A stretch of DNA of 40,560 nt, from IMG/VR virus record IMGVR_UViG_3300009788_000066, positions 1 through 40,560 of that record, one strand, 5' to 3'. The stretch is from a virus. A program made the position numbers and the translations under genes. Below the pieces are notes generated by a model. It was not told the DNA's origin and did not search any database. It saw nothing but the letters and a program-made list of their open reading frames with translations. Positions 453 to 36,384 of this stretch are shown here, one piece after another (within the stretch, counting starts at the first letter, position 1; each line of letters begins with the position of its first letter).

Positions 453-478
453 AGATTAATGTAAAAAAAAAATAAAAA

Positions 479-922: not shown

Positions 923-927
923 TGTAA

Positions 928-960: not shown

Positions 961-970
961 AATTATGTGG

Positions 971-1789: not shown

Positions 1790-1803
1790 TATAATTAAAG
1801 ATC

Positions 1804-1828
1804 AAAAAAAGCCCAGGATAGGGCTTTT
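1804..1828 (-). terminator. Rho-independent terminator upstream of the scaffold gene
   Basis: Read on the minus strand, AAAAGCCC (1828-1821) pairs with GGGCTTTT (1814-1807) around a 6-nt loop, followed by further T residues to 1804. It lies inside the transcription unit, 12-15 nt before the scaffold ATG, so it would act as an attenuator rather than an operon end. It directly follows the interleaved repeats at 1831-1889. Confidence 0.7.
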
Positions 1829-1830
1829 AG

Positions 1831-1889
1831 TATGCACAAACACGCCGACCAAGAGTATTTGTGCACAGTAAAAGCACTATTTGGTCGGC
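1831..1889 (-). promoter_or_regulatory. Interleaved inverted repeats (switch or pseudoknot) before the attenuator
   Basis: In the minus-strand RNA, GCCGACCAA (1889-1881) can pair with UUGGUCGGC (1852-1844), a perfect 9-bp stem. UGUGCACAAAUAC (1867-1855) can pair with GUGUUUGUGCAUA (1843-1831), 13 bp including two G.U pairs. The two stems interleave: the 5' strand of the second lies in the loop of the first, and their 3' strands abut. They therefore exclude each other or form a strained H-type pseudoknot. The terminator at 1804-1828 follows with 2 nt between. This is a plausible conditional attenuator for capsid genes. Confidence 0.5.
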
Positions 1890-1912
1890 TTTAATTTTTT
1901 AAAAGAACAATC

Positions 1913-2248
1913 TTATTCAGATTCAGAAGAATGATAAACTATTTTACATTCACTAGGAATACACCTTGCATAAGAAGGAGAGTTTATCTCTCTTTTTGTA
2001 TCATCACATTTTGTTGCGATACCTTTCTCAAGATTATACAAGCGTTGTTTATACTTTCTCCATTCCTCACCTTTTTCATCAGCCTTCTTATCCATTCTTT
2101 CTCCTCTATCTTTTTCCATATTCGCGTTCTCTTGTTCTACATCGATAACTTTACTATTAAGCCAATCAATATCATTCTTAAAACGGGCAGGAACATCTTT
2201 CCCTGTCATCTCAGAATATCTCTCACGTGCTGTATCAATATCTGACAT
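1913..2248 (-). CDS. Hypothetical coiled-coil protein
   Basis: 111 aa, not recognised. Residues 25-75 are strongly helical and charged (VIDVEQENANMEKDRGERMDK), fitting a coiled coil; three Cys occur near the C-terminus (C80, C95 and C101). It is the first gene after the promoter-like sequence at 2277-2303 and the last before the attenuator region that precedes the scaffold gene, which suggests a head-assembly accessory role. That role is inference from position. Confidence 0.6.
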   Translation of the reverse strand: MSDIDTARERYSEMTGKDVPARFKNDIDWLNSKVIDVEQENANMEKDRGERMDKKADEKGEEWRKYKQRLYNLEKGIATKCDDTKREINSPSYARCIPSECKIVYHSSESE

Positions 2249-2276
2249 ATGAATTTGATTAAATTACAATTAAAGT

Positions 2277-2303
2277 ATTATATAAAATGGGTACAAAAGT
2301 CAA
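2277..2303 (-). promoter_or_regulatory. Probable sigma70-like promoter for the head gene cluster
   Basis: On the minus strand, TTGACT at 2303-2298 is followed by TATAAT at 2282-2277 (15-nt spacer) or TAATAC (17-nt spacer), ahead of the gene starting at 2248. It carries no copy of the 14-bp operator found in the other promoters, so it may be constitutive or late. Confidence 0.4.
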
Positions 2304-2500
2304 TCTATTCTTTTCTTACCTTGTGCAGCTAATGCTAATTCAGCTGTTTCGCCTCCAAACTTCTCTGATATTTGTTCTTCTGTAGCTCCTTGTTTAGCCC
2401 ATACTCTCGCCTCATCCATATCTTCACTCCAATTCTTATTGTCTCTATCTTGATTGGATAAAGACTTGTTTCCTATGGCTTCCGTAATGATATGTGTCAT
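2300..2500 (-). CDS. Hypothetical small protein
   Basis: 66 aa, acidic and hydrophilic. The segment EARVWAKQGATEEQISEKFGG resembles a short helix-turn-helix-like module, but this is weak. It overlaps the upstream 82-aa gene by 4 nt (ATGA), indicating translational coupling to the portal cluster. Function unknown. Confidence 0.6.
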   Translation of the reverse strand: MTHIITEAIGNKSLSNQDRDNKNWSEDMDEARVWAKQGATEEQISEKFGGETAELALAAQGKKRID

Positions 2501-2745: not shown

Positions 2746-4507
2746 TTAATAAAAGGTCAAGAATTTTATTTGTCTTTAATGGATCTTTTTGATCAAGGGC
2801 TTTAGAGACAAGCGTGTTTATATTTGATTCTTTTGTCTTTTGGTCTTCCACTCCTACATTAATCTTTCCACCTCTTAAGGCTTCTCCTATCTCACCTTCA
2901 ATCTTAGATTCTGACTCTTCTTTTGCAAACAATTCTGACGTATCTAACTGAGGGAATGTATCCATAATCTGTTGCAGGAATGTATCTGCAGAAAACTTCT
3001 CTTTGAGTTCTGGAAAAATAGGGAAAATACTTTCAAAGAATATCTCTGCCATTCTTAATAATTGATTCCTTGTCTCTTCCTGAGTGACCTCGTCTTCACT
3101 TGCTGGTCTAATAATAACACTGTATTCAAATCCTTCCCAATCCTTCGATTGTATCTCTATTTTAGCTTGGGAAGATATTGAAGACCTTAGCTTATCGTCT
3201 GCAGTTAAAGCAAAGTCGTTAATAAGAATGTCTCTATCCTTATTAAATATAAATCGAATAATACTTCTAGACCTAAGCATCGCTCTTTGACTCTCAGCGT
3301 CTACCATCATTGTTGTGATAATACCTCGTAGCCTCTTTACTTGTGTAGCAACTTTCTGCTTCGTCTGTGTAGCAAGTTCTTGAGGTTTCGCTAGTAAGGC
3401 ATTTATATCTTGTCCACTCGCTACAGTAAATTCATCATTCAAAAACGCTATGTACTGCTGTAAAAAAGCTGGATCATTCCCTAGTTGAACTTGCTGTATC
3501 TTTTCCTGTATATTAATTCCCTTCTTTAGATCTACTGGTTGAACTCCTCCACGTAATTCTTGTCCTGCAGTCAATCCAGTATCGTCTGCAGCGAATATGA
3601 TTGGTGTGGAAAGTAGCTTCACCAAGTTGGACCACATATTCACACTAATATCCTTTTGCTTTAATACAGGAGCAACTAGTTCCAACACTGAAGGTGGATA
3701 TAATGTCTCAAACTCTAAATGAGGTGTATAAACAACAAATGGCAATCTGCCATACGGATTCTTTCCATCAAAAATAAGTTCGCTCCCATTCGTTGTAGCA
3801 ATTAAATGTTGATCTTTTGACCAATATTCCAGTACTTCAATCTTGTCTGATTCATGTTCTTGCTCATTAAGATTGATTTCTGTTTGGTCTTCACGAGTAT
3901 CTCCTGTGCCTCCTCCTTTTGCTGTGTTTTTAACAGCAGCCACATTAAATGGTTCTTTACTAAACAAACTCTCAAATACTTCACGTTTATATCTCCTACG
4001 TCTAATACAGTCTTGCGCTCCATCTATTCCTAACGGGTCATAATACTTAGTCGCCTCATCATCCATAAAGAAATCTCGCACATCTATTCTTTGACTCATC
4101 AACCCTACAAACACATCCTTATTATCAGTCTCTAAATATCCTTCAAATAAGACACCAATTCCATAACAAATAGAATCAAATATAGCTCCTTTGCGTTCTT
4201 TCTCAGTATTGATTTTCTTAGTCTCTTGATTGTATATCTTTGTAAGTCTGTCATATTGAAATCCTTCCTTGACTGTGCTTTCTGCAGTAGGAATAAATAC
4301 GACACTTCCATCAAACTCATTTGTTACTTCCTCAGCGATACCATTACAAACAACCCACGAATTAGCCAAATGAACAGCTCCATCGTTTCTTAAGAATGAA
4401 AACTTACGTCTATTGTTACGCTCCCAACGATCATCAAAATCATCATCTTTGGCATTTTGCATAGCCGTAAACCTAGTCTGTACAAATGCTGCGTCTTTTT
4501 TGGGCAT
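2675..4507 (-). CDS. Portal protein
   Basis: 610 aa, in the range of podovirus (P22/T7-type) portals. Supporting features are a charged N-terminal arm (DDRWERNNRRKF), a long mixed wing/stem region with conserved-looking 'LPFVVYTPH' and 'QKDISVNMWSNLVKLLSTPII' segments, a helical 'SGQDINALL...QTKQKVATQVKRLRG' section, and an acidic, Gln-rich C-terminal tail. It lies downstream of the terminase genes and upstream of the scaffold and capsid genes, as expected. The dodecameric portal would be the DNA gate and head-tail vertex. The ATG at 4507 has an A/T-rich, SD-less leader. Confidence 0.8.
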   Translation of the reverse strand: MPKKDAAFVQTRFTAMQNAKDDDFDDRWERNNRRKFSFLRNDGAVHLANSWVVCNGIAEEVTNEFDGSVVFIPTAESTVKEGFQYDRLTKIYNQETKKINTEKERKGAIFDSICYGIGVLFEGYLETDNKDVFVGLMSQRIDVRDFFMDDEATKYYDPLGIDGAQDCIRRRRYKREVFESLFSKEPFNVAAVKNTAKGGGTGDTREDQTEINLNEQEHESDKIEVLEYWSKDQHLIATTNGSELIFDGKNPYGRLPFVVYTPHLEFETLYPPSVLELVAPVLKQKDISVNMWSNLVKLLSTPIIFAADDTGLTAGQELRGGVQPVDLKKGINIQEKIQQVQLGNDPAFLQQYIAFLNDEFTVASGQDINALLAKPQELATQTKQKVATQVKRLRGIITTMMVDAESQRAMLRSRSIIRFIFNKDRDILINDFALTADDKLRSSISSQAKIEIQSKDWEGFEYSVIIRPASEDEVTQEETRNQLLRMAEIFFESIFPIFPELKEKFSADTFLQQIMDTFPQLDTSELFAKEESESKIEGEIGEALRGGKINVGVEDQKTKESNINTLVSKALDQKDPLKTNKILDLLLNANAKKPPQQVQEAQDVATAGVQ

Positions 4508-5358: not shown

Positions 5359-5547
5359 TTATGAAAAATAAACAATAGTGGGATTTGTATGCTTAGAGAA
5401 GTAAAACATAGGATATCTCTCAAAGCATTCAACGCAATACCATATCCTATCCATTCCTCCCTCACAAAATACCTTCTTCTTTTTCAACTTCTTCTCACAG
5501 AGTTCACAATTTGTACATGTTTCATGTGAAATGATTGCAGCAGTCAT
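5359..5547 (-). CDS. Small zinc-ribbon protein
   Basis: 62 aa with CTNCELC near residues 11-17 and WYCVEC near 36-41, a four-Cys zinc-ribbon arrangement. Zinc-ribbon miniproteins are common in phage genomes and usually bind nucleic acid or host factors. The stop lies 4 nt before the YopX start. Its leader (TAACACTATG) resembles that of the neighbouring YopX gene. Confidence 0.65.
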   Translation of the reverse strand: MTAAIISHETCTNCELCEKKLKKKKVFCEGGMDRIWYCVECFERYPMFYFSKHTNPTIVYFS

Positions 5548-15921: not shown

Positions 15922-15938
15922 AGTTAAAAATTAAAAAA

Positions 15939-16118
15939 TTATTCATCAAAATATTTTTCCATCAATATTCCCACGTAATAAACAACTGTAAATATAGCAA
16001 CAAATATAATTATTTCTTTCCCATTAATTACATATGCTTCCCTTGCTTCCACTATCTCTCCCAAATCCCAAAAACAAACTAAGAATGCAATTAATGGAAA
16101 AACGAAATATTTAAACAT
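15939..16118 (-). CDS. Small two-span membrane protein, 59 aa
   Basis: From the ATG at 16118. Hydrophobic stretches at residues 4-17 (YFVFPLIAFLVCFW) and 35-52 (EIIIFVAIFTVVYYVGIL) are separated by a charged loop. Part of a run of five small genes between 15.9 and 16.9 kb. Confidence 0.5.
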   Translation of the reverse strand: MFKYFVFPLIAFLVCFWDLGEIVEAREAYVINGKEIIIFVAIFTVVYYVGILMEKYFDE

Positions 16119-16135
16119 TTTGATAAATAAAAGGG

Positions 16136-16243
16136 TTAAGACTTATGCTCTTCAATGAGCCTTTGAATTTCTTGTAATAACATTTCTAGCTCAGCCATTG
16201 TGAGGTTTCTTGCGTGCTGCATTATGTATTCTATTGTGGTCAT
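16136..16243 (-). CDS. Hypothetical 35-aa helical peptide
   Basis: Starts at the ATG at 16243, overlapping the stop of the upstream membrane protein (ATGA). It reads as one amphipathic helix (MAELEMLLQEIQRLIEEHKS). Its reality rests on coupling and composition. Confidence 0.4.
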   Translation of the reverse strand: MTTIEYIMQHARNLTMAELEMLLQEIQRLIEEHKS

Positions 16244-16416
16244 ATAATGAAATATAAAATTGCACAAGCTATTGCAAAAGAAAATAGCCCTGAAAATGCA
16301 AGTATTTCGTCATTTTTTTCTTCAAAATATTCTTTTCCATAGAAGAAGCGTATCAGCCAACAAAGAAGTACATAAAGAAAGAGAAATATTATTGGAAATA
16401 AAAGTAATGCTTTCAT
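16240..16416 (-). CDS. Small two-span membrane protein, 58 aa
   Basis: From the ATG at 16416. Two hydrophobic segments (residues 3-25 and 41-58) flank a charged loop, GKEYFEEKNDE. ATGA overlaps with the genes on both sides indicate a translationally coupled set. Confidence 0.5.
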   Translation of the reverse strand: MKALLLFPIIFLFLYVLLCWLIRFFYGKEYFEEKNDEILAFSGLFSFAIACAILYFII

Positions 16417-16496
16417 AATGAGAAATAAAAAATAGTACCGAAGATTATAGTTACTGCTATAGAGCCGAGGAGTGCTGTAAGAAGGAAGAGTTTCAT
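16413..16496 (-). CDS. 27-aa single-span membrane peptide
   Basis: MKLFLLTALLGSIAVTIIFG... is almost entirely one membrane span after a Lys. Its start overlaps the upstream stop and its stop overlaps the next start, both as ATGA, which is unlikely by chance in two successive junctions. Confidence 0.45.
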   Translation of the reverse strand: MKLFLLTALLGSIAVTIIFGTIFYFSL

Positions 16497-17879: not shown

Positions 17880-17958
17880 ATGTGTTTTGGTAAAAGAATG
17901 AAAATTCCTGATAAACAGGGAGAAGTGGAAATAGACTTTCAATCTACCCCACTTGTCT

Positions 17959-18031
17959 CTATCTACAGGACGCTGAAGGCATTGGAGTAGAATAGTTCGA
18001 AATTCATACCTTCAGCATTCTGTCTATATAG
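17959..18031 (-). ncRNA. Long hairpin next to the tRNA-like RNA
   Basis: GCTGAAGG (17972-17979) pairs with CCTTCAGC (18009-18016), extended by ACAG/CTGT (17965-17968 with 18020-18023) and CTAT/ATAG (17959-17962 with 18028-18031). The loop is about 29 nt. It follows the tRNA-like element by 5 nt and may be part of the same transcript or its 3' processing signal. Confidence 0.4.
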
Positions 18032-18035
18032 TCAT

Positions 18036-18200
18036 TGGTGAAGTGGAGGTAGGACTCAAACCTACGAAATCACAGCTAAGTACTTCACTTGGGAGATCAA
18101 TCCTTCGATTCATACCATCACTGATCGCGTCTATCGGTCTAGGGGTTTTGAATTACCCTCCGCTTACGTATTGCGTTGAAACTTCGCCACTCCACTTCAC
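18036..18200 (-). ncRNA. tRNA-like structured RNA without a normal anticodon arm
   Basis: On the minus strand, GTGAAGTGGAG (18200-18190) pairs perfectly with CTCCACTTCAC (18048-18038), and CCA ends at 18036. Next to the 3' strand is a T-arm-like hairpin, 5-bp stem and 7-nt loop TTTGAGT (18065-18049). After the 5' strand comes TG, then a GCG/CGC D-stem-like hairpin with a 9-nt loop, as in tRNA-Leu but lacking the GG of the D-loop; the T-loop lacks the matching C. About 108 nt of further structure replace the anticodon and variable arms. No tmRNA tag motif (GGATTCGAC) is seen. The stretch 17880-18226 holds no protein gene. Confidence 0.4.
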
Positions 18201-18226
18201 AATAACTACGATGTAAAAGAACTAAT

Positions 18227-18418
18227 CTAAAACTTCTTTAAGACTTCTTTGCGTATCTCTTCAAACTGTTCTTCGGTTATTTCTACGACGAGAACATCTT
18301 TTTCTATTTCTCTTAGAATGTGGTCATTCATATGCATACCATATCCATTTCGTTGTTCTTTGCGTTGTTCTTCATAATCCTGATTTGGGACTGTCTTTGT
18401 AACAATAAGTCTGATCAT
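18227..18418 (-). CDS. Hypothetical 63-aa protein
   Basis: Begins MIRLIVTKTVPNQ, contains two His-flanked Met residues (YGMHMNDH), and ends in an acidic-basic helix (ITEEQFEEIRKEVLKKF). It is the last gene of the early recombination cluster before the RNA elements. Not recognised. Confidence 0.6.
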   Translation of the reverse strand: MIRLIVTKTVPNQDYEEQRKEQRNGYGMHMNDHILREIEKDVLVVEITEEQFEEIRKEVLKKF

Positions 18419-21065: not shown

Positions 21066-21158
21066 TTCTTCTTATAAAGCAATTTCAATATACACCAAAG
21101 AATGAATACTGTCAATACTAGGTACTGTGATGGTATTTCCCAAGTCGTAAAAACTTAG

Positions 21159-21323
21159 TTAAATATGTAAAGACTCCTTTTGTTCTTCAAGTGGTATGTT
21201 GTTTTCTGATGCACATCGCGAATGTATTAAAAGTTTTCCTTGCTTCTTCTCAGAACGTACAATGAAGAACTCTTCATTATATCTTAACTTCTTGCCGCAT
21301 AGATCACATCTATATTGTATCAT
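21159..21323 (-). CDS. 54-aa zinc-finger-like protein
   Basis: From the ATG at 21323, overlapping the stop of the basic 61-aa gene (ATGA). RCDLCGKKL gives a CxxC and HSRC adds two more ligands. Function unknown. Confidence 0.5.
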   Translation of the reverse strand: MIQYRCDLCGKKLRYNEEFFIVRSEKKQGKLLIHSRCASENNIPLEEQKESLHI

Positions 21324-21505
21324 GCCATAAATCTTCCTGTTTTCTTATTCCTCTTCTTTTTAACAATAGCACTCTTCCTTCTGTCAGGAAATGTCTTACC
21401 TGTAGGAAGACGTTTAATCTTAATTTTAATTCTTCCCTTAGCTCCTTTCAATTTCTTTTTTAACCCTTTCGGAGCAGTGCCGATTAATTTTATTTTTCTG
21501 GCCAT
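21320..21505 (-). CDS. Highly basic 61-aa protein
   Basis: About 40% Lys/Arg (APKGLKKKLKGAKGRIKIKIKR...), almost no acidic residues. It would bind DNA, RNA or membranes strongly. Located between lysis genes; could be a membrane-active lysis peptide or a DNA-condensing protein. It starts within the end of the preceding gene (16-nt overlap). Confidence 0.6.
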   Translation of the reverse strand: MARKIKLIGTAPKGLKKKLKGAKGRIKIKIKRLPTGKTFPDRRKSAIVKKKRNKKTGRFMA

Positions 21506-24816: not shown

Positions 24817-24848
24817 GTATAGTAGAAATACAGGGTCGGCTAGATATT

Positions 24849-24877
24849 ATGTTACTCTTTTTCAATACATATGTAAA
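24849..24877 (-). promoter_or_regulatory. Possible leftward promoter for the spike/lysis transcript
   Basis: On the minus strand, TTTACA (24877-24872) and TAACAT (24854-24849) are 17 nt apart, 33 nt upstream of the spike ATG. Divergent from the operator promoter at 24883. Confidence 0.35.
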
Positions 24878-24882
24878 TTCTA

Positions 24883-24911
24883 TTGACATGCGATGTCACA
24901 TGAGCTATCAT
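24883..24911 (+). promoter_or_regulatory. Operator-promoter copy 4 (rightward, island)
   Basis: TTGACA (24883-24888), operator ATGCGATGTCACAT (24888-24901), -10 TATCAT (24906-24911), 17-nt spacer. A 10-bp palindrome ACAGTACTGT lies at 24919-24928, about the start point. It drives the plus-strand island, the only rightward genes in the phage. Confidence 0.75.
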
Positions 24912-24954
24912 TGTCTGTACAGTACTGTTAATACATTTTTAATATTTAACCCCC

Positions 24955-25047
24955 ATGCCTATGAAAGAGCTAGGTCCTGAAGTTTTTGTATCCGCTATTT
25001 TTGTTGGCGCGATATTCTTTATGCTCCAGAATTCTGGAGTTATTTAA
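24955..25047 (+). CDS. 30-aa membrane peptide
   Basis: MPMKELGPEVFVSAIFVGAI... is a short charged start followed by one hydrophobic span. First frame downstream of the rightward operator promoter, with an A/T-rich leader. Reality is supported by position only. Confidence 0.4.
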   Translation: MPMKELGPEVFVSAIFVGAIFFMLQNSGVI

Positions 25048-25058
25048 CCCCCCTTATT

Positions 25059-25199
25059 ATGAAAAATCAAAAAAAAGACGGTGATACTAAAGACGCTTCC
25101 TCTATGGAAGGGAAATACCTCACCGGAAAAAACCTAGAAGAAGCTAGGAAAAAAATTAAAGACGCTAAGAAAAAGAAAGATGAAGATAACAAGAAATAA
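25059..25199 (+). CDS. 46-aa Lys/Asp-rich protein
   Basis: Strongly charged and helical (EEARKKIKDAKKKKDEDNKK at the C-terminus). Starts 11 nt after the preceding stop; its end overlaps the next gene by 20 nt. Not recognised. Confidence 0.45.
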   Translation: MKNQKKDGDTKDASSMEGKYLTGKNLEEARKKIKDAKKKKDEDNKK

Positions 25200-25353
25200 G
25201 AAATGGCAGGATCCTCTTGAGCGCAATGAGATTATCATTGTAGGAGACTGTGCCAAGAAATGCAGCAAATGCATACCTAACTCTGAAGAGAAGGCTCTGA
25301 AGAAGAAGTATGGCATCAGATCATTTTCAGATGGACTTTGTGACCATCATTAA
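25180..25353 (+). CDS. 57-aa Cys-rich protein
   Basis: From the ATG at 25180. GDCAKKCSKCIP (residues 22-33) and a terminal CDHH give possible zinc ligands. It overlaps the preceding gene in another frame. Function unknown. Confidence 0.45.
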   Translation: MKITRNKKWQDPLERNEIIIVGDCAKKCSKCIPNSEEKALKKKYGIRSFSDGLCDHH

Positions 25354-25372
25354 TAATTTTATAAAAACAAAT

Positions 25373-25537
25373 ATGAAAAACATCAAAATAACAACATCGA
25401 AAAACACCGTCTCTGCGAGATGTCCTTATAAGCCATGCGGTGAGACCACTGTAGGAAGAACCTCTCAGAGAGCTATAAGTAAACTCGTTAAACCTGCACT
25501 CGTGTGCAAAAAGTGCAATAGACTTGTAGGCTTGTAA
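25373..25537 (+). CDS. 54-aa zinc-ribbon protein
   Basis: From the ATG at 25373. CPYKPCG (residues 16-22) and CKKCN (46-50) make a zinc ribbon; the remainder is basic. The longer in-frame start at 25310 would overlap the upstream gene and is less likely. Could be a small DNA- or RNA-polymerase-binding factor. Confidence 0.55.
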   Translation: MKNIKITTSKNTVSARCPYKPCGETTVGRTSQRAISKLVKPALVCKKCNRLVGL

Positions 25538-25547
25538 ACAGAAAAAA

Positions 25548-25567
25548 CATTGCCTTTCGACAATGTC
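25548..25567 (-). terminator. Weak minus-strand hairpin with T-run
   Basis: On the minus strand, ACATTG and CAATGT (6 bp) enclose an 8-nt loop and are followed by six T residues. It would stop leftward read-through into the island; only weakly stable. Confidence 0.35.
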
Positions 25568-25618
25568 ATTCTGCGAAGTATCATTTCTCAATTTACTTTA
25601 TTATTTTATTTTTATCAA

Positions 25619-25834
25619 ATGAAAACCTTACTTACATTATCGGCTCTTATGTTAGTTTTTACTGGGTGTAGTGCTCAACCGTTACCTGAAGAAACAAGAT
25701 CAAGAATATGTCAGGACGCAGTCAATATGCAAGGACAAAGCAATGTCAAGTATCAATGGCTTGGTCCTATAGGGACTTACAAAAAAGATGGTTGTGCCAT
25801 TGTGACAAATGGAGGAACTGATGTGATTTATTAG
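25619..25834 (+). CDS. Small lipoprotein
   Basis: 71 aa from the ATG at 25619. MKTLLTLSALMLVFTGC is a signal with lipobox LVFTGC (C17). The mature domain has three more Cys (CQDAV, GCAIV) and is otherwise polar. Last gene of the island, directly followed by the bidirectional terminator. Small phage lipoproteins often block superinfection or DNA entry; here that role is inference. Confidence 0.65.
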   Translation: MKTLLTLSALMLVFTGCSAQPLPEETRSRICQDAVNMQGQSNVKYQWLGPIGTYKKDGCAIVTNGGTDVIY

Positions 25835-25847
25835 TCAGTACACATCT

Positions 25848-25881
25848 AAAAAGGTCTATGAAATTTCATGGGCCTTTTTTT
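25848..25881. terminator. Bidirectional terminator between convergent units
   Basis: AAAAAGGTCTATGAAA and TTTCATGGGCCTTTTT form a near-perfect stem with A-runs and T-runs at both ends (two T.G pairs on the plus RNA). It separates the rightward island from the leftward ejection-protein genes; the stop codon of the latter lies in the stem's T-run. Confidence 0.8.
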
Positions 25882-27838
25882 ATTCAATCCCCTCTGCAAC
25901 AACAGCAGCTTGAATAGCTTGTAACACTTCACGAGGAATCCCCTGTGTAGCACCATTGATAGCTTTAGTCACTATGGACTGACTCACCCCAGTGTCTTGA
26001 GCTATTTTACGTGCTATAGCTACAGGATCTGCAAATATTTTTCGTGTTGTTGTTATTCCTGCTCTTATAAGTCCAGCAGTAGGTGTAGCCTCTTCAAGTA
26101 TTTCAACTAAACGAGATTTAGCCTGTGATCCTCCTAGATTCTCTGCTGAAAATTTAGCAAAGACTGAATCTTCAAATAAGTCAATATTAGTTTCTTTAGC
26201 TATTCTATCGAATAACTTACGTGTTTGTTCGCCTCTTTCATTCAATGCTTTCTTAAGTATGGTAACTGCTTTTTGATTCTCACCTCCTGCTGCTTTAAAT
26301 ACATCTTTCTCTAGTCCTGCTAATTCAGCAAATTTCGCATTAGCTTTAGCAAGTTCAGGAGCAGCTTGCTGTTGTACTTTGTTCAATTTTCCTCTTAATT
26401 GTTCTACAAACTTATTAAGTGTGTCTTTCTTTGGTTCTGGTAGGTCTCTGTTAATAAGTCCATCTAATCTCTTCTTGATATCATTTATCTTTCCTACAGA
26501 GGTTTCTTTTTGAGAAAGTAATCTCACTTCATTATTAATCTTTTTAAGTCTGTTAAGATCAGCATCTTGCAATGTAGAAACCCTTCCCTTGGGAGATGTT
26601 ACTTTTCCTGCTGATATTTTTACATTGAATCTCTCAAGTATATCATCTTGGAATTCTTTTATGAACTTTCCAGTCTTAGCTTTTATACCCTGTGATGCTT
26701 TTAATGCTTCTCCTTGTATCTTTCCTGCTGATCTTTTGGCTGTATTTATAGAATTTCTCGCTTGTTCTACACTATCCTCTGCTAATGCTAAGGCTCCTTT
26801 CGCTCTAGGATTAGCAGCATTCTGTTCTGCTGCAGCTAAGAACTTCTCAAAACTCTTAGCTCTTTCAGGTTGTTTTACTGTAGTGTTTATAAATTTAGCC
26901 TGATCTGCCGCTGAGAGACCTCCTGTTGGATTGATCACAGTAGATATATCATCAACTCCTGAGAGTTTTCTTTGTAATGCCCTAGCACCTCTTCCTATAG
27001 CCTTTCCTCCAGGTATCAATGAAGATAATAGAATATTCAATCCTGCTCCTGTTACTACCTCCGCAGTTCCTGGGGCCTGTAATGTAGCAGCTTCAAATGC
27101 TGCTGTACCTGCTGCACCTTCAACCCCTCTTGTCAATAGGAATTTTCCTAAATTTCCTAATGTTCCTCCTTGTTTGGCTAAACCAGGTGCTATCTTTAAC
27201 AATCCTGTTCTTGCAGCATTAGCACCTGCTCCTCCTGCTATGAATGCAGGAATAAGTGATGCGACCTTACCAAGAAATTTACCTGCATCATTAGTAGGGA
27301 TTCCTGACCTTTCAAATAATTCTTCAGTAGACACAGGATCGATTCCTGTTATACGTTCTATAATAGGGTCAAGCACTTCACTAGCTTCAGAAAGACCAGC
27401 CCCAAATCCTCCAATTGTTTCTTTTGCTGTCTCTACTATTGCACCTAGTCCAGTAGTACCTCTTTCCTCTGCAGCAGCCCTGATTTGTCCCCCAAGGCCT
27501 CTTGCTGGTAGTTCTGGATCAACCGCTGGCCTAGTCTCACCTCTGAGCTGTGCCCCTAGCCCTCTTGCTGGCAATCGTTGCTGTTCTGGTGGCAATACTG
27601 CTTGATCTTCTGGAACAAACTCTCTTCTTTGAGGACCTACGAATCCAGGCTGCTGAGAAGGAAGTGCCGCAAGTCTCTTTCTTGAACTTTCAGCATCACT
27701 ATTCAAAATATTTCTCCTTGCATTATTCACTCTCACTTTATTTTTATCTCCTATTAAATTAGTGCGTTCCCCAGGAAGTCCAGCAGTTGGTTCTACATCT
27801 TCTTTTAGCTGAAATTGTGATAAGTCAATTGTAGGCAT
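25880..27838 (-). CDS. Internal virion / ejection protein
   Basis: 652 aa. Residues about 130-300 are rich in Gly/Ala with repeated hydrophobic helices (LIPAFIAGGAGANAARTG, VVTGAGLNILLSSLIPGG), a membrane-inserting pattern seen in podovirus pilot proteins (P22 gp7/16/20, T7 gp14-16). The rest is coiled coil and helical. Its start overlaps the stop of the 1130-aa CHAP protein (TAATG), so the two are made together. It would enter the cell envelope during DNA injection. Confidence 0.6.
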   Translation of the reverse strand: MPTIDLSQFQLKEDVEPTAGLPGERTNLIGDKNKVRVNNARRNILNSDAESSRKRLAALPSQQPGFVGPQRREFVPEDQAVLPPEQQRLPARGLGAQLRGETRPAVDPELPARGLGGQIRAAAEERGTTGLGAIVETAKETIGGFGAGLSEASEVLDPIIERITGIDPVSTEELFERSGIPTNDAGKFLGKVASLIPAFIAGGAGANAARTGLLKIAPGLAKQGGTLGNLGKFLLTRGVEGAAGTAAFEAATLQAPGTAEVVTGAGLNILLSSLIPGGKAIGRGARALQRKLSGVDDISTVINPTGGLSAADQAKFINTTVKQPERAKSFEKFLAAAEQNAANPRAKGALALAEDSVEQARNSINTAKRSAGKIQGEALKASQGIKAKTGKFIKEFQDDILERFNVKISAGKVTSPKGRVSTLQDADLNRLKKINNEVRLLSQKETSVGKINDIKKRLDGLINRDLPEPKKDTLNKFVEQLRGKLNKVQQQAAPELAKANAKFAELAGLEKDVFKAAGGENQKAVTILKKALNERGEQTRKLFDRIAKETNIDLFEDSVFAKFSAENLGGSQAKSRLVEILEEATPTAGLIRAGITTTRKIFADPVAIARKIAQDTGVSQSIVTKAINGATQGIPREVLQAIQAAVVAEGIE

Positions 27839-30800
27839 TATTGTTGATCAAAAATAAATCTATTTTCAGGTGTATCTATTATACCATTTTGTTCTGCAAA
27901 TTCTTCAAAAGTTGTTCCTTCTCTTATTGCCACATTATTCTCCTGTAATGGACCAATAAATCTATCTTGTTGAGAAGGATCGTATAATCGGACTCTTAAG
28001 TCTCTATCTAAAATTTGGAATTCATTCACTTCAGGAAGTCCAACTTGTCTACGAGAAGTATTATGCTCTTGCATTAACCCAGACTTCAATTGTTTTATTT
28101 TCTGTAATGCTATTTCTGGTTGATCTTTTAATGATGCAATAAGTGGATCTAAAAATCTTTCTTCAGTTTCAGTAACAGCAGATCCTAATAATTTACTCCT
28201 CATTTCTTTTATAAGATCAGTATACGCTGAAGCTAATCTCTGTGCTTTTTGGAATTCTTCATCTGTTTGTCCAAGCGCTCTTCTTGCTGTAAAAATATCT
28301 CCTTGCAATCTTCCTGTAAATTTCTTTCCTACTTGTCCAAGTAATTTTTCAACCCTGTTAGCCTTAGAGACAGTAGAAGAAGCAAGTTGAGCATCCTGAA
28401 GTCCTACATCAACATCTTTTAATAAACTATTTTCAATTAATGTCACAGCTTTTCCTGACTGACCATCATTAATCAATCTTGCAATACTAGCAGGGTCAGC
28501 ATCACCTTGAAGTGCAAGTTGTCTCAAATTCTTTCCAAGTGGTTCTAATTCTTTATTATCAATTCTAAATCCTATCATTACATCTGCTGCTTCAAATGGT
28601 GTTTTTCCTTCATCTAATAATGCATCTATACCGTCTAATAACAATTCTCTTTCTGCATCAGAATTTCTTAACTGAGTAGGTACATTAGACATAGCAATCA
28701 TTCTATCAGCAAATCTTTTAGATTTAGATCCTACACCTTCTGCTGCTAATTCTGCATCTTGCAATCCAAATGATCTGAGTTGCACTTGTTTTATTTCTGC
28801 CTCAGAAAGTCCTGCGTCTTTTAATGCTGTTCTTTTTATACTCCCTGTAGACAATTGCTTAGCAAATGCTTCAAGATCAGTTCTTAATTGTCTTCCTCCA
28901 ACTCCAGGAACTTCTACTGGAGCAGTAGCTGCTGCAGCTGCTTTAGCTGGATCAGACGCTTTCCCTGCATAGAATCCACTTATCTTTAGCTGTTCAGCAG
29001 TGCCTTTCCTTTGACTAACTTGTCCACTTTTAAAATTAGATTCTGTAATAGTTATAATTCCAGTTTCGGAATCAAAATCACTAACAACTCCTACGTGTCC
29101 TATTTGTTCACCCGTAGCAGGATCAGAATTTTTAGTATCCATTATTGCAACTGCTCCTTCTGCAGGAGTGTTAGAATTAATAATTGCTAATTTATCTTGA
29201 AATGTAAACAATCCACCAGGTAAGTCAGCAACAATAGACCTCGAGAACTTAACACAATTTGCAGCCAAATCTTTTGAAACACCTTCAGGATTACGAATAG
29301 CGTTATTCAAGTTTTCTATTCCTTTTTCAGTAAACCCAGGCTCATAACCATCAGCAAATATCTCTCTATCTTCAAAGTCTAACCTCTGAACAAAATCATA
29401 ATCATCTAAATCTCTTAATAATGCATTTCCTTCTTCTTTTGATATCAATCCTGTTCTCATAGCATTTCTTGTTGCTAACTCAGAACCAGTTCTCCATGCA
29501 GCAAAGTCTTCTCTGTCTTTTGGTAAATCGAATACATTACCAAAGAAATCTTGCTTGACTTTTCTTTCTTCTTGAATTCTTTCCCATGTCTGCACAGGTT
29601 CTCCATTCTCATCAATGAATGGCACAACCTTTCCTTCCCTATCTACTGTACTAATAACGCCCAAGCTGTCAAACAAATTCTTAGCACTCTCATTTTGGGC
29701 TCTTGATATATCTTGACGCTTTTGTAATTCTTCAGCCCTAGCATTACTAGCCAGAGTAGCCATATCACCTTGAAACTCAATTAAGGCATCTTCTTTCTTC
29801 TGTTCACGTTCACGTATGAGTCCTATTTCTTGATCGTCTATAGAATCTAATTGACCTTGATACGATTGCAAAGCACTAAACGTATCTAATTTTAGCTTAT
29901 TATCAATTTGTTCAACCTTATCAGTGTAATCAATCATGAGTTCTTGCTGTTTGTCAAATACATCTAATACTTGATCATCAAAATCTTGAGCAACGTCCTG
30001 AACCATTTTATCGTAGCGTATAGTCTCACTTACGATTGTATTAAGTCCAAAACTTCCTTCTAATGCTACACCAGTAAGACTCATACGAGCCTTGAGCATA
30101 GCTATCGTGTCATCACGTTTACCATTTAAATCTTGGACAGTATCAGTTTTTTGAGACCTTAAGCGAGCCTCTTCACGTTCCAGTTTTGTATTTAGAAATC
30201 CAGCTCTTTCTTCCAATCCTCGTTTTTGACTAGCTGCTTGATCTGTAATCAATGTTCTAAATATCTCTTCATTACGTATAACTCTATCCCTACGTGCTTG
30301 TAATTGATTTTGTTGCAGAATAGTAGATGCATTGTCTTGACCTGTAGTAGCGAGTTTATCCTTAAGTATTTGTGAATTAGCCAAAAATAAATCATGAGGA
30401 GTAGAATCAGGATCACTCAATATGTTAAATATTTCCTGAGTACTCATGTTTAGCCCTACATCAAATGTATTAGGTACAGTCATAACCTGACCTGTACGTT
30501 TCAACATTCGATCCTGTACTTCACTTATTGTCCAATCGTTTATTTTATTTCCTTGTTCATCGAAATTCAACAAACCCAACATTGTATTAGGGTCTGTTAT
30601 ACCTTGACTCAGAAGATCATCAATAACAGCTTGTTGTGATATATTCTCTTGTTCTTTACTAGGAGGCAATGGAGTCTCTCTCGTAACATCTTGTATTTCA
30701 TCAAGAGAAGGTTCTTCGCCAAAAGGCCTTATGACTCTTTCTCCTTCAATATCAGCAACACGTCTTCCTCCTTCTACACCTATCTCTGCTCCTAACTCCT

Positions 30801-31230
30801 CCCTACCTTCTTCACGTCTTCTCAGTCCTCCTTCCTCAAGAGTTGGAGCAGCTACTACTTCTTCTGGCTTTGGAAGTTCTGTGACTTTTGCTTCAGGAAT
30901 AGTAGGCTGATCAGTAACCTTTTGACGTGCAATATCTCTCTCAGAAAGTTGTCCTCCTTCAAAGACAGGAACATCCTTTGGTTGTCCTCTGAACTCAGAT
31001 GCAGCTTTTGCTTGAGAAAGCAATTTGCTTTCTCTTCGTTGTCTTGCAACACCAGAAGTAGCCTGTTGACCAGGGACAACTGCTTCTCCAGTACGGACAT
31101 CTTTAAATGCTCCTCCAGAAGTTTGCTCAACCTTCGTTCTAACATCAATGCCCGCAGCCTTTTTTTCACCTGCTCTCAGGATTTTCTTTCCTCTTTTGCC
31201 AGTAGGTCTAAATGGTTTCTTTGTAGCCAT
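27838..31230 (-). CDS. Large internal virion protein with CHAP peptidoglycan hydrolase domain
   Basis: 1130 aa. The N-terminal 450 residues are charged and coiled coil; a CHAP (NlpC/P60-like) domain follows with C659 in AANCVKFSRS, H712 in IGHVGVVSDFD and E730/N732 in TITESNF. The C-terminal third is helical. A large podovirus virion protein carrying a murein hydrolase fits the ejection proteins that open the wall for the DNA (compare T7 gp16). Being the largest gene it could also be called a tape-measure-like protein, but the tail genes here are of the short-tailed type. Confidence 0.7.
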   Translation of the reverse strand: MATKKPFRPTGKRGKKILRAGEKKAAGIDVRTKVEQTSGGAFKDVRTGEAVVPGQQATSGVARQRRESKLLSQAKAASEFRGQPKDVPVFEGGQLSERDIARQKVTDQPTIPEAKVTELPKPEEVVAAPTLEEGGLRRREEGREELGAEIGVEGGRRVADIEGERVIRPFGEEPSLDEIQDVTRETPLPPSKEQENISQQAVIDDLLSQGITDPNTMLGLLNFDEQGNKINDWTISEVQDRMLKRTGQVMTVPNTFDVGLNMSTQEIFNILSDPDSTPHDLFLANSQILKDKLATTGQDNASTILQQNQLQARRDRVIRNEEIFRTLITDQAASQKRGLEERAGFLNTKLEREEARLRSQKTDTVQDLNGKRDDTIAMLKARMSLTGVALEGSFGLNTIVSETIRYDKMVQDVAQDFDDQVLDVFDKQQELMIDYTDKVEQIDNKLKLDTFSALQSYQGQLDSIDDQEIGLIREREQKKEDALIEFQGDMATLASNARAEELQKRQDISRAQNESAKNLFDSLGVISTVDREGKVVPFIDENGEPVQTWERIQEERKVKQDFFGNVFDLPKDREDFAAWRTGSELATRNAMRTGLISKEEGNALLRDLDDYDFVQRLDFEDREIFADGYEPGFTEKGIENLNNAIRNPEGVSKDLAANCVKFSRSIVADLPGGLFTFQDKLAIINSNTPAEGAVAIMDTKNSDPATGEQIGHVGVVSDFDSETGIITITESNFKSGQVSQRKGTAEQLKISGFYAGKASDPAKAAAAATAPVEVPGVGGRQLRTDLEAFAKQLSTGSIKRTALKDAGLSEAEIKQVQLRSFGLQDAELAAEGVGSKSKRFADRMIAMSNVPTQLRNSDAERELLLDGIDALLDEGKTPFEAADVMIGFRIDNKELEPLGKNLRQLALQGDADPASIARLINDGQSGKAVTLIENSLLKDVDVGLQDAQLASSTVSKANRVEKLLGQVGKKFTGRLQGDIFTARRALGQTDEEFQKAQRLASAYTDLIKEMRSKLLGSAVTETEERFLDPLIASLKDQPEIALQKIKQLKSGLMQEHNTSRRQVGLPEVNEFQILDRDLRVRLYDPSQQDRFIGPLQENNVAIREGTTFEEFAEQNGIIDTPENRFIFDQQ

Positions 31231-31242
31231 AATAAAATAAAA

Positions 31243-31392
31243 TTATTTTCTAGCGAAATCTTTGAGCTGTTTAATAGTTGCTGTACCAAATGGACGTGTA
31301 GCCTTTCTTTTATTCTGTTTCTTTACACCACGCCTTCTACGTGATAATTCAGATCCTGCAGCTTGCCTTTGTTTTTCGCTAGCACTGGGCAT
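31243..31392 (-). CDS. Small basic virion-associated protein
   Basis: 49 aa from the ATG at 31392: MPSASEKQRQAAGSELSRRRRGVKK... resembles short basic phage proteins that start 'MP.ASEKQR.AAGAEL.RR'. It is encoded just before the large ejection protein. Confidence 0.55.
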   Translation of the reverse strand: MPSASEKQRQAAGSELSRRRRGVKKQNKRKATRPFGTATIKQLKDFARK

Positions 31393-31397
31393 ATTTT

Positions 31398-31700
31398 TTA
31401 AATAGTAGGTTCATCATCACTATCTCTCAAAGGTAATATAGCATATTGCATAAACATACCACCTGGATCTCCTCTTTCCTTCTTGACCTTTTCCATCCAA
31501 TCTTCCTTTTCAAGTTCCTGAGCCTCTCCCCATCTCCCACCTGCAGGAAGTATAGCTTCTCCGCTAGGAAGTACTACAAATGCTGAAGGTCTCCACCCTG
31601 GATGATCTCCAACAATATAACCTTCATCTTCAATGATGGGTCGTTCGTCTTCTTCGATTTTCCCATAAACACCTGGGCGGCTAAAACACATGTATTTCAT
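31398..31700 (-). CDS. Hypothetical 100-aa protein
   Basis: From the ATG at 31700 (MKYMCFSRPGVYGKIEEDE); upstream in-frame ATGs overlap another gene and are rejected. It has a hydrophobic-proline core (GDHPGWRPSAFVVLPSGEAILPAGG) and acidic ends. Unknown function, in the tail module. Confidence 0.55.
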   Translation of the reverse strand: MKYMCFSRPGVYGKIEEDERPIIEDEGYIVGDHPGWRPSAFVVLPSGEAILPAGGRWGEAQELEKEDWMEKVKKERGDPGGMFMQYAILPLRDSDDEPTI

Positions 31701-31725
31701 AATAATAAATAAAAATAGTAAAAAA

Positions 31726-32025
31726 TTAAACGTAGATAACCTTCTCAATGTAATTCTTCTTTTTGTTTCGCTTATGAGCATCTTTTGTTTTCTTGAATAA
31801 CTTCTTATCTTGAGCATCATTGAATTTCAATTTCAGATTTCCGAATTCAACATCGAATTTCTTTGTCTTCTTAGAAAGCACTTCAATTCCATCTCTGCAA
31901 TCTATAGTCTTATGAAATAAGCCTACATCTTGATTAGGGATTTCAAATTCTTGTGAATTTTCAGTGGGACGAGTGCTCCATGCACCCAAAAAGCCGTCAG
32001 TGTTAAGTATGATATGAATTTTCAT
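31726..32025 (-). CDS. Hypothetical protein downstream of the polyglycine fibre
   Basis: 99 aa. The N-terminus MKIHIILNTDGFLGAW is beta-like; the C-terminus is very Lys-rich (DKKLFKKTKDAHKRNKKKN). The start overlaps the fibre stop (TAATG), so it could be a fibre chaperone or assembly factor; this is inference from the overlap. Confidence 0.5.
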   Translation of the reverse strand: MKIHIILNTDGFLGAWSTRPTENSQEFEIPNQDVGLFHKTIDCRDGIEVLSKKTKKFDVEFGNLKLKFNDAQDKKLFKKTKDAHKRNKKKNYIEKVIYV

Positions 32026-33701
32026 TATGTAAGGGCAAAAGAAACAATTTGTTGAAGCGAAGATGAGCCTGCACCACCACCAGATCCAGAACTACCAGCA
32101 GATCCTGCACTTCCTCCTCCTACCACAGTACCTCCACTTCCATTAGAACCTCCTGATCCTCCTGCAAGATTAGAACTCCCTGCTGTAATCGTACCAATAA
32201 TAAGAAAATCTAATTCTCCTCCACCACCACCTCCACCGCCTCCTCCACCACCACCTCCACCAGCTTCTCCACCTGCTCCTGTATCATCTCCTCCATCTCC
32301 TCCTGCAGTACCTGCTCCTCCATTCAGATTAATATTCCCTGTATTATTATAGTCACCTCCGACGTTAGCAAATATATCACATCCCATATCTCCTGCTTCT
32401 CCACCTGCTCCTCCTCCTCCTCCACTATTTCCTGCGTCTCCAGCACCAACACCACCAAAGGCATTACCTCCTGTTCCTCCAGTACCAGAGTTACCTGTAC
32501 CACCTCCACCTCCAGCAAAGTTTCCACCTGCATTTCCAGGCGCTCCTCCTGTACCTCCTGATCCTGGAGTATCACCTAAGTCTCCTCCACCTCCAGCTCC
32601 TCCATTAAAATTAGGCTGTCCAGTATTTGTACCTCCAGCTCCTCCTGTAGTTGTGTTTCCTCCTTCTCCACCACCTCCACCGCCACCTCCTCCACCAAAT
32701 CCTAGATCATCTGTATCTCCACCTGCGCCTCCATTACCTGCATTAGCAACCACTGGCATAGTATGAGTTGCTCCTCTTAAGAATGGAGTAATGCTATTAG
32801 TCTCTATCTTATCTGCGAAATCAAGTGTTCCAGCATTTGTAAAATTCCCCTGACAAAGAATATATATAATTCCTTCAGTTGTACTTGTTGTAGAAAGTGT
32901 TGCTCCAGCAGATACAGAAAAACTTACATATTGTTTAATAGTATTGGTAGCAATATTTGTTGTACCACTGGTTACATTCAATACTCCATCAGTACCATCT
33001 CCTAAGAATGCATCAGGTAATGGTACATTTTTAAAATCAACTCCGTCATGCTGAATAATCTCATCAGCAATGGCACTTGCTACAGTTGCATTTACATTTG
33101 CATGGTCAGCTAAATCTGCACCATTACCATGTGCCCCTACACCACTCAGATCACTAAATATAGCTCCATCATCACTAAACTGTGCTTTTCCAGCTACAGG
33201 ATCTTTACGAAGCCATGTTTTAGTACTTCCTGCGTCTTTATGCTGTATATCGAAATCGGTATTAGTTCCATCACCTCCAATAATATTATTTGCACCTGTT
33301 TCTTTTGTTCCTGCAAATACATCTGCTGGTATATTCCATGCAAAATGACTTACTAAACATCCAACTTCAGCATTTTCAAAATGTACCTGCTTATTAGCAG
33401 TCACTTCAGTTAATATATCACTTCCATCGAAAGAAAGACCTCTTAACACTCCGTTAGACAACGTAGTTACCCCGCTCGTTGTTGTATGACCATTCACAGC
33501 ATTTAAGATCTCATAACGTGAATTAGGACTTAACACACTTCCTTTATCTATGACAAATATACGTGTATTAGCATTAGGAGTTCTTGCATCTCCTGTTATT
33601 CGATCAGTAAACTCTACTTCTATACCATTGGCTTGAGTAGAGGTTAGTTCTGCTCGTAATCTTCCTATAAGGCGCGATTCTGCATTATAGATATGGGTCA
33701 T
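32025..33701 (-). CDS. Tail fibre/adhesin with polyglycine-rich domain
   Basis: 558 aa. The N-terminal 320 residues look like a fibre shaft (GDGTNTDFDIQHKDAGSTK, VSFSVSAGATLSTTSTTEG). Residues about 319-539 are dominated by glycine, with runs up to 15, broken by G-x-G-G-T and GGAGG blocks. Such stretches can pack as polyglycine II helices, as in the S16/T4-type gp38 adhesin tip, where loops contact the receptor. That fold is hypothesised here from composition only. It sits next to the nozzle gene. Confidence 0.6.
   Translation of the reverse strand: MTHIYNAESRLIGRLRAELTSTQANGIEVEFTDRITGDARTPNANTRIFVIDKGSVLSPNSRYEILNAVNGHTTTSGVTTLSNGVLRGLSFDGSDILTEVTANKQVHFENAEVGCLVSHFAWNIPADVFAGTKETGANNIIGGDGTNTDFDIQHKDAGSTKTWLRKDPVAGKAQFSDDGAIFSDLSGVGAHGNGADLADHANVNATVASAIADEIIQHDGVDFKNVPLPDAFLGDGTDGVLNVTSGTTNIATNTIKQYVSFSVSAGATLSTTSTTEGIIYILCQGNFTNAGTLDFADKIETNSITPFLRGATHTMPVVANAGNGGAGGDTDDLGFGGGGGGGGGGEGGNTTTGGAGGTNTGQPNFNGGAGGGGDLGDTPGSGGTGGAPGNAGGNFAGGGGGTGNSGTGGTGGNAFGGVGAGDAGNSGGGGGAGGEAGDMGCDIFANVGGDYNNTGNINLNGGAGTAGGDGGDDTGAGGEAGGGGGGGGGGGGGGGELDFLIIGTITAGSSNLAGGSGGSNGSGGTVVGGGSAGSAGSSGSGGGAGSSSLQQIVSFALT
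32084..32745. repeat. GGN-repeat tract coding for polyglycine
   Basis: Plus-strand tract of imperfect (cc[at]cct)-type triplets, the complement of GGA/GGT codons. Runs are imperfect and codon-mixed, so a microsatellite with slippage potential is possible within the fibre tip. Confidence 0.7.
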
Positions 33702-35710
33702 AATGATGGGGTTAAAATTGCTTCTGACATACGTTCTCCTTCTATGATTATTTCCTCTATTTCTATTCCTTGTTCTACATTAGAACTTCTCATAGCTAGG
33801 AATATCTCTTGTCCTTCATTAATATCTGAATCTACATGTATTTCCTTGAAAAATCGAAACATAGGAATATCATCCATAACTGATCCTGCATCTCCTACAA
33901 ATCCTATTCCTACAAAGTCATCACCTACGTATTCTCCTACAGCAGAAGTCCCAATTATATTGGTATCATTAATAGTTGCATCCTGACTGACTACCGCACT
34001 CTGATTCCCCACAACAATAGTAAATGTTCCACTAAATGGATTGGTTATAAACCCTTTAATAGTAACTCTTTTAAATCTATTTGCTTCTCCTAGGTTAGAA
34101 TTCCCTGCTCTATACGTTTTACCACGCCATATAGCATCAATTTCTTTCCCTACTCCTGTAGATTCATCAAAGTTATCACTAAACCTTCTATTGAATCGAA
34201 ACAGCTTTCCACTGAGTTCAGATCCGAAATATACCTCACGACCATCAGAATTTTCAAATATAGCATAGTCTGAGATCTGTAATCCCGTATTAACACTCCA
34301 TGCACCAAATCTTAAGTCATATACGAGTTCATGTGAGTTATCAGGACTCGTAGCCAGTGGCACAGCACATCTATACTTGTTCTGGAACCTATCATGTATC
34401 GCTGTAGGCTTGTCTAATGCACTATCGTTAATCAACCGTACCGTAGGGTCTATTTTCTCTGATAAATTAGCAGGACGTCTAAAACCAGGGAAATCTTCTA
34501 CAAATCCGAATGATTGAAACCTATTCTCTCCTAAAAACATAACACCAGCATTAACAGCTTGTGCTGTATTTCCTGAAACTGCTCCATCTGACCTATCTGT
34601 AATTTCACTTTGTCTCCATCCTAATGTATCAGCATCAGCTACCACTGTTATAGAACTTTTGAATATTGCCTCTAGTGCTGCTTTAGAACGTTCTTTTATC
34701 ATTAAGAATTGTTGGTCATGGCTTTTCATAGCAGTCATCCTTTCACCATTGTCCAGCAATATAGGCGTATTACCTGAAGTAGCACCAGTCCAATCTTCAG
34801 GATCTTCTACTACGCAATTAAATACTACTGTAGGAGCTGTTGTAATCCCTGAAGCAAAAACAAAGTCTCTATGTGTCTCAAATATACTTGCATTAGGAGG
34901 AGTACCACCTAAGTCATCTATTTGGAATGCATTCACCTTGTAGCTCACTGTTTCTAAATCATTTGCACCACTAGAGACTGCTATACCATCAGCTACCGTA
35001 GAAGTTACATGGAAATGATCCTCGCTTCCTGCTGTGAAGTTCATATTAAACTTCTGAAACCCACTAGAAGCCATATTTGCAGCTAAAATAGTGTCACTTG
35101 CTATCACAACATCAGAAGAATCATGCACTGTTACTGTCCAATCACCCGTACCCTTCGCACTGATCTCAATCTCTATAGAAGTAATAAAGAATCCACTTGT
35201 TATAGCTGTGAATGTTTTCTTTTCTGTAGCTACTTCAGATATAGCTGTCGCTATAGTGTCAGTATTCCCTCCTGTTGTATCGCTTTGTTCTTCAACATCA
35301 GCAAATTTCTTCACGTTATTTGCATCATTCCCATTTCCAAAAATACCAAGGTTCTTATATACCGTCCCATTCACTCTTTCTCCATCATCAGTTCCATACG
35401 TACCATGATCTATCCATGTAGTGTCAGTATCACTTACAGTGAATAATTTGGAATCATTAAATATCAGAAGAAACTTCTCAGGATTAGCTCCTATAGATTG
35501 GAATGCAAGTAATCCTCTTACTCCTTTCGTTGTACTACCACCAGTAGAAACCTTATCAAATCCAAACCTCTTCTTGAGTCTTCCTTTACCACTTATTTCA
35601 AAGTTTTGCAAGATAGCAGACTCATTATCTCCTATCAGATGAGGAGCATCTTTCGTATTAAGTCCGCCAGAGAAGTCACTAATGACTATAGGTTTAAAGG
35701 TTCTTGCCAT
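33698..35710 (-). CDS. Tail nozzle / stabilisation protein
   Basis: 670 aa. It starts ARTFKPIVISDFSGGLNTKDAPHLI, and GDNESAILQNFEISGKGRLKKRFGF closely matches the opening of podovirus nozzle/DNA-stabilisation proteins (T7 gp12-like, P22 gp10-like), including the 'SGGLNT.D....L..NE...' pattern. The remainder is beta-rich. It follows the adaptor gene directly, the usual adaptor-nozzle order. It would form the tube beyond the portal. Confidence 0.75.
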   Translation of the reverse strand: MARTFKPIVISDFSGGLNTKDAPHLIGDNESAILQNFEISGKGRLKKRFGFDKVSTGGSTTKGVRGLLAFQSIGANPEKFLLIFNDSKLFTVSDTDTTWIDHGTYGTDDGERVNGTVYKNLGIFGNGNDANNVKKFADVEEQSDTTGGNTDTIATAISEVATEKKTFTAITSGFFITSIEIEISAKGTGDWTVTVHDSSDVVIASDTILAANMASSGFQKFNMNFTAGSEDHFHVTSTVADGIAVSSGANDLETVSYKVNAFQIDDLGGTPPNASIFETHRDFVFASGITTAPTVVFNCVVEDPEDWTGATSGNTPILLDNGERMTAMKSHDQQFLMIKERSKAALEAIFKSSITVVADADTLGWRQSEITDRSDGAVSGNTAQAVNAGVMFLGENRFQSFGFVEDFPGFRRPANLSEKIDPTVRLINDSALDKPTAIHDRFQNKYRCAVPLATSPDNSHELVYDLRFGAWSVNTGLQISDYAIFENSDGREVYFGSELSGKLFRFNRRFSDNFDESTGVGKEIDAIWRGKTYRAGNSNLGEANRFKRVTIKGFITNPFSGTFTIVVGNQSAVVSQDATINDTNIIGTSAVGEYVGDDFVGIGFVGDAGSVMDDIPMFRFFKEIHVDSDINEGQEIFLAMRSSNVEQGIEIEEIIIEGERMSEAILTPSL

Positions 35711-36382: not shown

Positions 36383-36384
36383 TT

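Follow-up and report, generated by a model that had tools for sequence, protein, structure and literature searches.

The locus and its surroundings

The window, meaning the whole stretch of DNA that was analysed, is an IMG/VR virus record of 40,560 bases. Its minus strand carries the recognisable genes, including those for terminase, primase/helicase, SSB, NinB, tail proteins and a peptidase, and the tRNA-like RNA considered here lies on that strand alongside them. A second contig (L037) bridges both ends of the window (1-2500 and 27838-40560) with 100% identity at the protein level, which probably makes the record a near-complete genome in circularly permuted form. At 26%, the identity of one tail protein to a TM7 phage protein is too low for naming a host. 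No phage homologue was found in GenBank by blastn, and queries with the neighbouring proteins (NinB, tail, primase, terminase) returned near-identical fragments of the same phage that do not cover the RNA (L037, L045, L046) or phages whose relationship is limited to terminase.

The RNA occupies part of 347 gene-free bases, bordered on one side by a small ORF at 18227-18418 and on the other by the likely start, near 17879, of a short ORF for a secreted protein. The first-pass annotation had called this the only long gene-free stretch, which is broadly correct for 17880-18226, but the genome has other long stretches without ORFs of at least 60 aa (15922-16492, 21066-21489 and 24817-25879), in which short ORFs seem to be present. 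The features of the region are as follows.

18038-18196, minus strand: whole tRNA-like RNA, the extent matched by the family covariance model R2
18190-18196, minus strand: acceptor 5' strand AGTGGAG, all seven positions paired with 18042-18048; leader pairing extends to 18209
18182-18189, minus strand: T8 G9 and box A/D-stem 5' strand, TGGCGAAG; box A score 10.2 bits
18136-18181, minus strand: 46-nt D-loop insert, aligning with inserts of 30-57 nt in relatives
18127-18135, minus strand: putative 3' half of D-loop and D-stem, GATAGACGC (G18-A19 ... CGC); matching columns near-invariant in 32 sequences
18066-18126, minus strand: 61-nt domain replacing the anticodon and variable arms; z +0.28, no structure beyond chance
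18049-18065, minus strand: T-arm GTAGG-TTTGAGT-CCTAC, the sole consensus T-arm in the window
18042-18048, minus strand: acceptor 3' strand CTCCACT, paired with 18190-18196 and followed by T73 and CACCA
17966-18022, minus strand: downstream hairpin SL-B; 17966-18027 folds with z -5.1, reached by 0 of 200 shuffles
17906-17970, minus strand: long irregular downstream hairpin SL-C; 17903-17972 folds with z -5.3, reached by 0 of 200 shuffles

The region as a whole folds with z -4.6, and SL-C may serve as an RNase III site or as a weak terminator.

Architecture of the RNA

The T-arm is present as first reported and is stacked directly on the acceptor helix. Sixty Markov control genomes held a mean of 0.25 T-arms each, none with an abutting 7-bp acceptor. 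By exact search the 17-mer of the T-arm recurs in 34 other contigs, mostly inside real phage tRNAs, and joined to half of the acceptor (CTCCAC) it also occurs in bacterial tRNA-Tyr genes. The acceptor-type helix, originally given as 11 bp, is perfect over that length (18200-18190 with 18048-18038, minus strand) but continues beyond it, reaching 20 bp if a single bulged C is allowed for (18209-18190 with 18048-18028); a few relatives lengthen the acceptor by 3-4 bp. Because of this extension the CCA that had been taken for a tRNA end lies within the helix, two bases off the tRNA register as read from the sequence. The encoded bases 73-76 are TCAC, with the helix running on and no RCCA at the tRNA position, unlike a canonical tRNA, in which a discriminator and CCA follow the 7-bp acceptor. 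Elsewhere in the genome the acceptor motif GTGAAGTGGAG repeats no more than expected by chance.

The TG said to precede the GCG start of the D-stem is there (TG GCG AAG on the 5' side). Box A, TGGCGAAGT, scores 10.2 bits against a median of 9.0 for real class II tRNAs, a score reached by 9-mers of the window at a frequency of 1e-4. The GCG strand of the proposed GCG/CGC D-arm stands, but GATAGACGC, which lies 46 nt downstream at 18135-18127, is a more likely partner for it than the near CGC at 18175-18173, as judged from the alignment of relatives described below; folding energy is undecided between the two D-stems (-53.7 versus -54.7 kcal/mol). The elbow requires a similar revision. GG in the D-loop and C56 in the T-loop are indeed not there, but G18-A19, displaced by the insert, is matched by U56. 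Positions 19 and 56 are a covarying elbow pair in phage tRNAs: among tRNAs across all loci compared, those with U56 have GA in 31 of 37 cases, while those with C56 have GG in 1001 and GA in 14.

The anticodon arm is missing, as the first reading held, the best candidate in the window forming 3 of 5 pairs, which is the level of shuffled sequence, and the same is true across the family. The middle of about 108 nt that had been described as other structure does replace this arm, but it folds no better than shuffles (z = +0.6). An H-type pseudoknot in the window interior is not significant (p = 0.17); pseudoknots of at least 12 bp were found in 7 of 33 family members against 1.5 expected, a modest enrichment. 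A motif common to the window and one relative, L164 (GCAATACGTAA), differs in its position relative to the D-stem and is treated as chance.

ARAGORN called no tRNA in the window, a search for tmRNA (ARAGORN tmRNA mode and Rfam) was negative, and Rfam gave no hit at the gathering threshold, but its tRNA model reached 20.5 bits, below the cut-off of 29. With a class II tRNA covariance model derived from 42 tRNAs the site is the top hit in the window (20.7 bits, E = 0.0014; runner-up 9.3 bits). The anticodon arm and cloverleaf of a canonical tRNA were not found.

Relatives and covariation

Two patterns were used in finding relatives. The first, a class II box A joined to a T-arm over 100-130 nt, returned tandem tRNAs and approximately 10 overlong RNAs with fully paired acceptors, and a general scan of 2.7 Mb of collected sequence gave 17 candidates as against 0 in a Markov control. 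Some relatives hold their extra sequence in the D-loop, and it was this location that led to the window being read again and GATAGACGC being found 46 nt downstream. The second pattern comprised the tRNA parts of the D-loop-insert architecture with no requirement for acceptor pairing, and it matched 55 of 2.9 million viral contigs, where about 0.1 chance hits were expected by the author's estimate. Although pairing had not been required, the acceptor pairs at all seven positions in 34 of 41 distinct matches.

An alignment of 31 relatives and the window (32 sequences) has 99.2% of its cells paired, compared with 31-42% in slid registers, and 68 cells in which both sides have changed, compared with 12.9 in shuffles. 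The acceptor covariation score was reached by 0 of 500 shuffles, with double changes at 6 of the 7 acceptor pairs, and the T-stem covaries strongly too. The window contributes a complete 7/7 acceptor with its own sequence, AGTGGAG/CTCCACT. A covariance model, R2, built from the 31 relatives with the window excluded, recovers the window at 41.4 bits (E = 1.1e-9) over all 153 model positions. Canonical tRNA-Leu genes reach 25-36 bits with R2, and for that reason membership is set by architecture (length, insert, lack of an anticodon arm) and not by score alone; part of the window's 41 bits accordingly reflects shared tRNA-Leu ancestry. With independent, covarying relatives in dozens of viral contigs and a model that finds the window without having been built on it, the suggestion of a new phage RNA has become strongly supported.

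Anatomy and variation of the family

These comparisons show that the RNA belongs to a family of virus-encoded RNAs derived from tRNA-Leu. Its members retain the top half of the tRNA, made up of acceptor stem, D-stem and D-loop, and T-arm, with matched bases at the elbow, and for want of an anticodon arm they cannot decode. The order of parts is acceptor, TGGCGRA, D-loop insert, GRTAGACRC, a domain of 42-72 nt, T-arm and acceptor; the window has TGGCGAA, an insert of 46 nt (30-60 nt in the family) and GATAGACGC. Among 55 RNAs of at least 100 nt there are 23 different acceptor sequences, AGTCAGG/CCTGACT being the commonest. As a class the D-inserts are mostly hairpins (mean z -2.0), that of the window folding weakly (z -0.76). 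A 5-bp/7-nt anticodon arm was found in 0 of 35 members, partial stems being as common as in shuffles. The interiors are distinct in 48 of the 55 RNAs, and a motif is shared only within one subgroup. The base that follows the acceptor is A in 37, G in 10, T in 6 and C in 2 (n = 55), and with discriminator bases varying in this way a single charging enzyme cannot be the common target.

Members occur singly or in arrays. Two arrays, L284:10706-12649 and L286:276-7081, hold respectively six and seven such or related tRNA-Leu-like RNAs, whose ends are nearly constant and whose interiors are unrelated to one another, and canonical tRNAs are almost absent from both. Several relatives are located within tRNA clusters, and at half of 44 loci there is no canonical tRNA in the stretch examined, so the isolation of the window RNA is normal for its family. 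It is nevertheless a divergent member, with U56/A19, T73, an extended acceptor and its weakly folded insert, and it falls below the Rfam tRNA threshold and is missed by ARAGORN, whereas some relatives exceed that threshold. The family is large and apparently undescribed; no description was found in the literature searched, which is weak evidence of novelty given that most subscription papers and bioRxiv lay outside its scope.

Possible function and competing explanations

The explanation favoured here, at a probability of roughly one half, is that this non-decoding, top-half member of a tRNA-Leu family is processed from an operon and mimics the tRNA elbow and acceptor against a host protein. 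The RNA would be transcribed as part of the minus-strand operon, in which it lies between the NinB-like gene and a block of short secreted or lysis-type genes, and released by host nucleases, whether RNase III cutting in SL-C and the 20-bp helix or RNase P/Z cutting at the acceptor. Once released it would persist as a small RNA and, as its most likely function, imitate the elbow and acceptor, thereby occupying a host protein that recognises tRNAs by this half; a tRNA-modifying, tRNA-processing or tRNA-targeting defence enzyme would be a candidate. The interior would need only to fold away and to remove the anticodon, and the absence of other demands upon it would explain constant ends with fast-changing insides. 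This reading is preferred because the acceptor, elbow and T-arm are visibly under selection, the interiors changing freely, and we infer the mechanism from which part is conserved. The earlier idea of a decoy for anticodon nucleases is mechanistically unlikely, the part cut by such enzymes being the one that is missing, but the RNA may be a decoy for enzymes whose recognition of tRNA relies on the elbow, T-arm or acceptor.

The same facts can be read in the opposite direction, with the tRNA ends as a maturation and stability module capping a functional, variable interior (guide, aptamer or antisense), so that arrays would deliver different interiors. The arrays with near-constant ends and unrelated interiors, and the 48 of 55 interiors that are distinct, suit such a cargo, as does a 13-nt complement in the window interior to phage mRNA at 5428-5440, where 40 shuffles gave a maximum of 12. 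That antisense match is marginal, however, the enrichment of pseudoknots is modest and no common interior motif extends beyond one subgroup, and a cargo function is judged unlikely. Slightly less probable again is a cis-acting element, a tRNA-like, hairpin-rich stretch of mRNA directing processing or stability between two gene blocks. Its position in a coding-strand intergenic site, the 20-bp helix with two strong hairpins and the regional z of -4.6 would fit, but the genes next to relatives, which are found in arrays and in tRNA clusters, are not the same ones, and SL-B and SL-C are not shared as far as was seen.

Decay of tRNA genes in tRNA-rich viruses, which would make these RNAs pseudogenes and the window RNA the degraded tRNA that the first-pass annotation had entertained, draws on the fast turnover of phage tRNA arrays and on the several relatives in tRNA clusters. 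It is disfavoured, and improbable, given perfect stems and retained boxes across 23 acceptor sequences, near-invariant box sequences, a recurrent D-loop insertion point, arrays of up to seven copies and the lack of an anticodon arm in every member tested (35 of 35). Still less credible is a tRNA whose D-loop and anticodon loop each hold an intron and which becomes functional on splicing: ARAGORN with relaxed settings can force an intron of 68-77 nt upon the window, but the anticodon stem is unformable at the expected place in 35 of 35 members, the inserts share no common sequence and have no Rfam intron hit, and the exons do not join to a full cloverleaf. A minimal tmRNA is very improbable, for although the RNA has a tRNA-like domain without an anticodon and inserted sequence, and GNANDEEHYL is a possible reading of one relative (L241), the tmRNA searches were negative, a reading frame ending in L/V-A-A-stop occurs in 0 of 55 RNAs and a canonical tRNA-Leu D-arm is present. 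An attP site, carrying a host tRNA 3' end for integration into a tRNA gene, has almost no claim despite the occurrence of the T-arm with CTCCAC in bacterial tRNA-Tyr genes, as the RNA also has box A and the 5' strand of the acceptor, the family alignment disfavours this reading and no integrase was seen among the larger proteins scanned.

That the family constitutes a system of small RNAs with tRNA caps, widespread among viruses and present in one to seven copies per locus, with near-constant tRNA-Leu ends and fast-changing interiors, directed against tRNA-reading defences or serving as cargo and lacking a known counterpart, is a tentative proposal to which slightly less than even odds are given. 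Non-decoding tRNA-like RNAs, RNA C and RNA D, have been known in T4 for some 50 years without an assigned function, and a large family with clear covariation, whose members stand alone or in arrays, opens the question to comparative and deletion tests. Counts of tRNAs in viral genomes include or miss RNAs of this class.

Comparison with known systems

Several other tRNA-like loci are recorded as observations in their own right. L006:6380-6920 is a cluster of interrupted tRNA-like genes in which ARAGORN finds no tRNA; several of these genes contain or adjoin the repeat ACTTACAATACT. In the crAss-like phage cr4_1 (NC_055893; L331:3800-4030) there is an unannotated tmRNA-like sequence with a T-arm and a possible tag, GNTSYVMDYTRLAA-stop. 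A viral contig, L141:18279-18375, carries a copy of a tRNA-Pro 3' half from the anticodon arm to CCA that is probably an attP site. Tenacibaculum phage pT24 (L332:3278-4238) has an annotated tRNA-Sup, tRNA-Undet and tRNA-Pro, the last sitting inside a longer tRNA-like match (3921-4028). L151:1-580, from a Saprospiraceae MAG contig, has three tandem tRNA-Leu-like RNAs unmatched by Rfam, with covarying acceptors (CTGTAG/CTACAG versus CTGTGG/CCACAG) and a long D-loop insert in one copy.

The overlong RNAs of L151, L206, L216, L250 and pT24 ('tRNA-Undet') combine expanded loops with ends like those of tRNA-Leu or of other tRNAs; the D-loop insert is present in some, the expansion is confined to the anticodon/variable side in others, and a few retain an anticodon-like arm. 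The likeness to tmRNA lies in a tRNA-like domain that has no anticodon and carries an insert, but the window RNA and its family have no tag reading frame, no tmRNA box, a normal D-stem and approximately half the length.

T4 encodes the small stable RNAs C and D, the function of RNA C being unknown (PMC9697503, PMC3014915), and RNA C is reported to be expressed as a small stable late RNA (PMC9697503). RNA C (rnaC, species 1) is 139 nt long and, as in the window, combines a perfect T-arm with an acceptor-like stem that closes the molecule and lacks an anticodon arm; the class II tRNA model gives it 21.7 bits, against 20.7 for the window RNA. RNA C has no tRNA-Leu box A/D-stem, however, and its interior differs from that of the family; among the matches listed for R2, T4 is represented by its tRNA-Leu only and not by rnaC. 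By this model test RNA C is the nearest known analogue and not a homologue. The phage class II tRNA-Leu shares with the family the TGGCGRAA box, GRTAGACGC, the T-arm and the 7-bp acceptor, and differs in having an anticodon arm and a variable arm where the family has lost the one, replaced the other and added a D-loop insert; it is clearly the family's ancestor.
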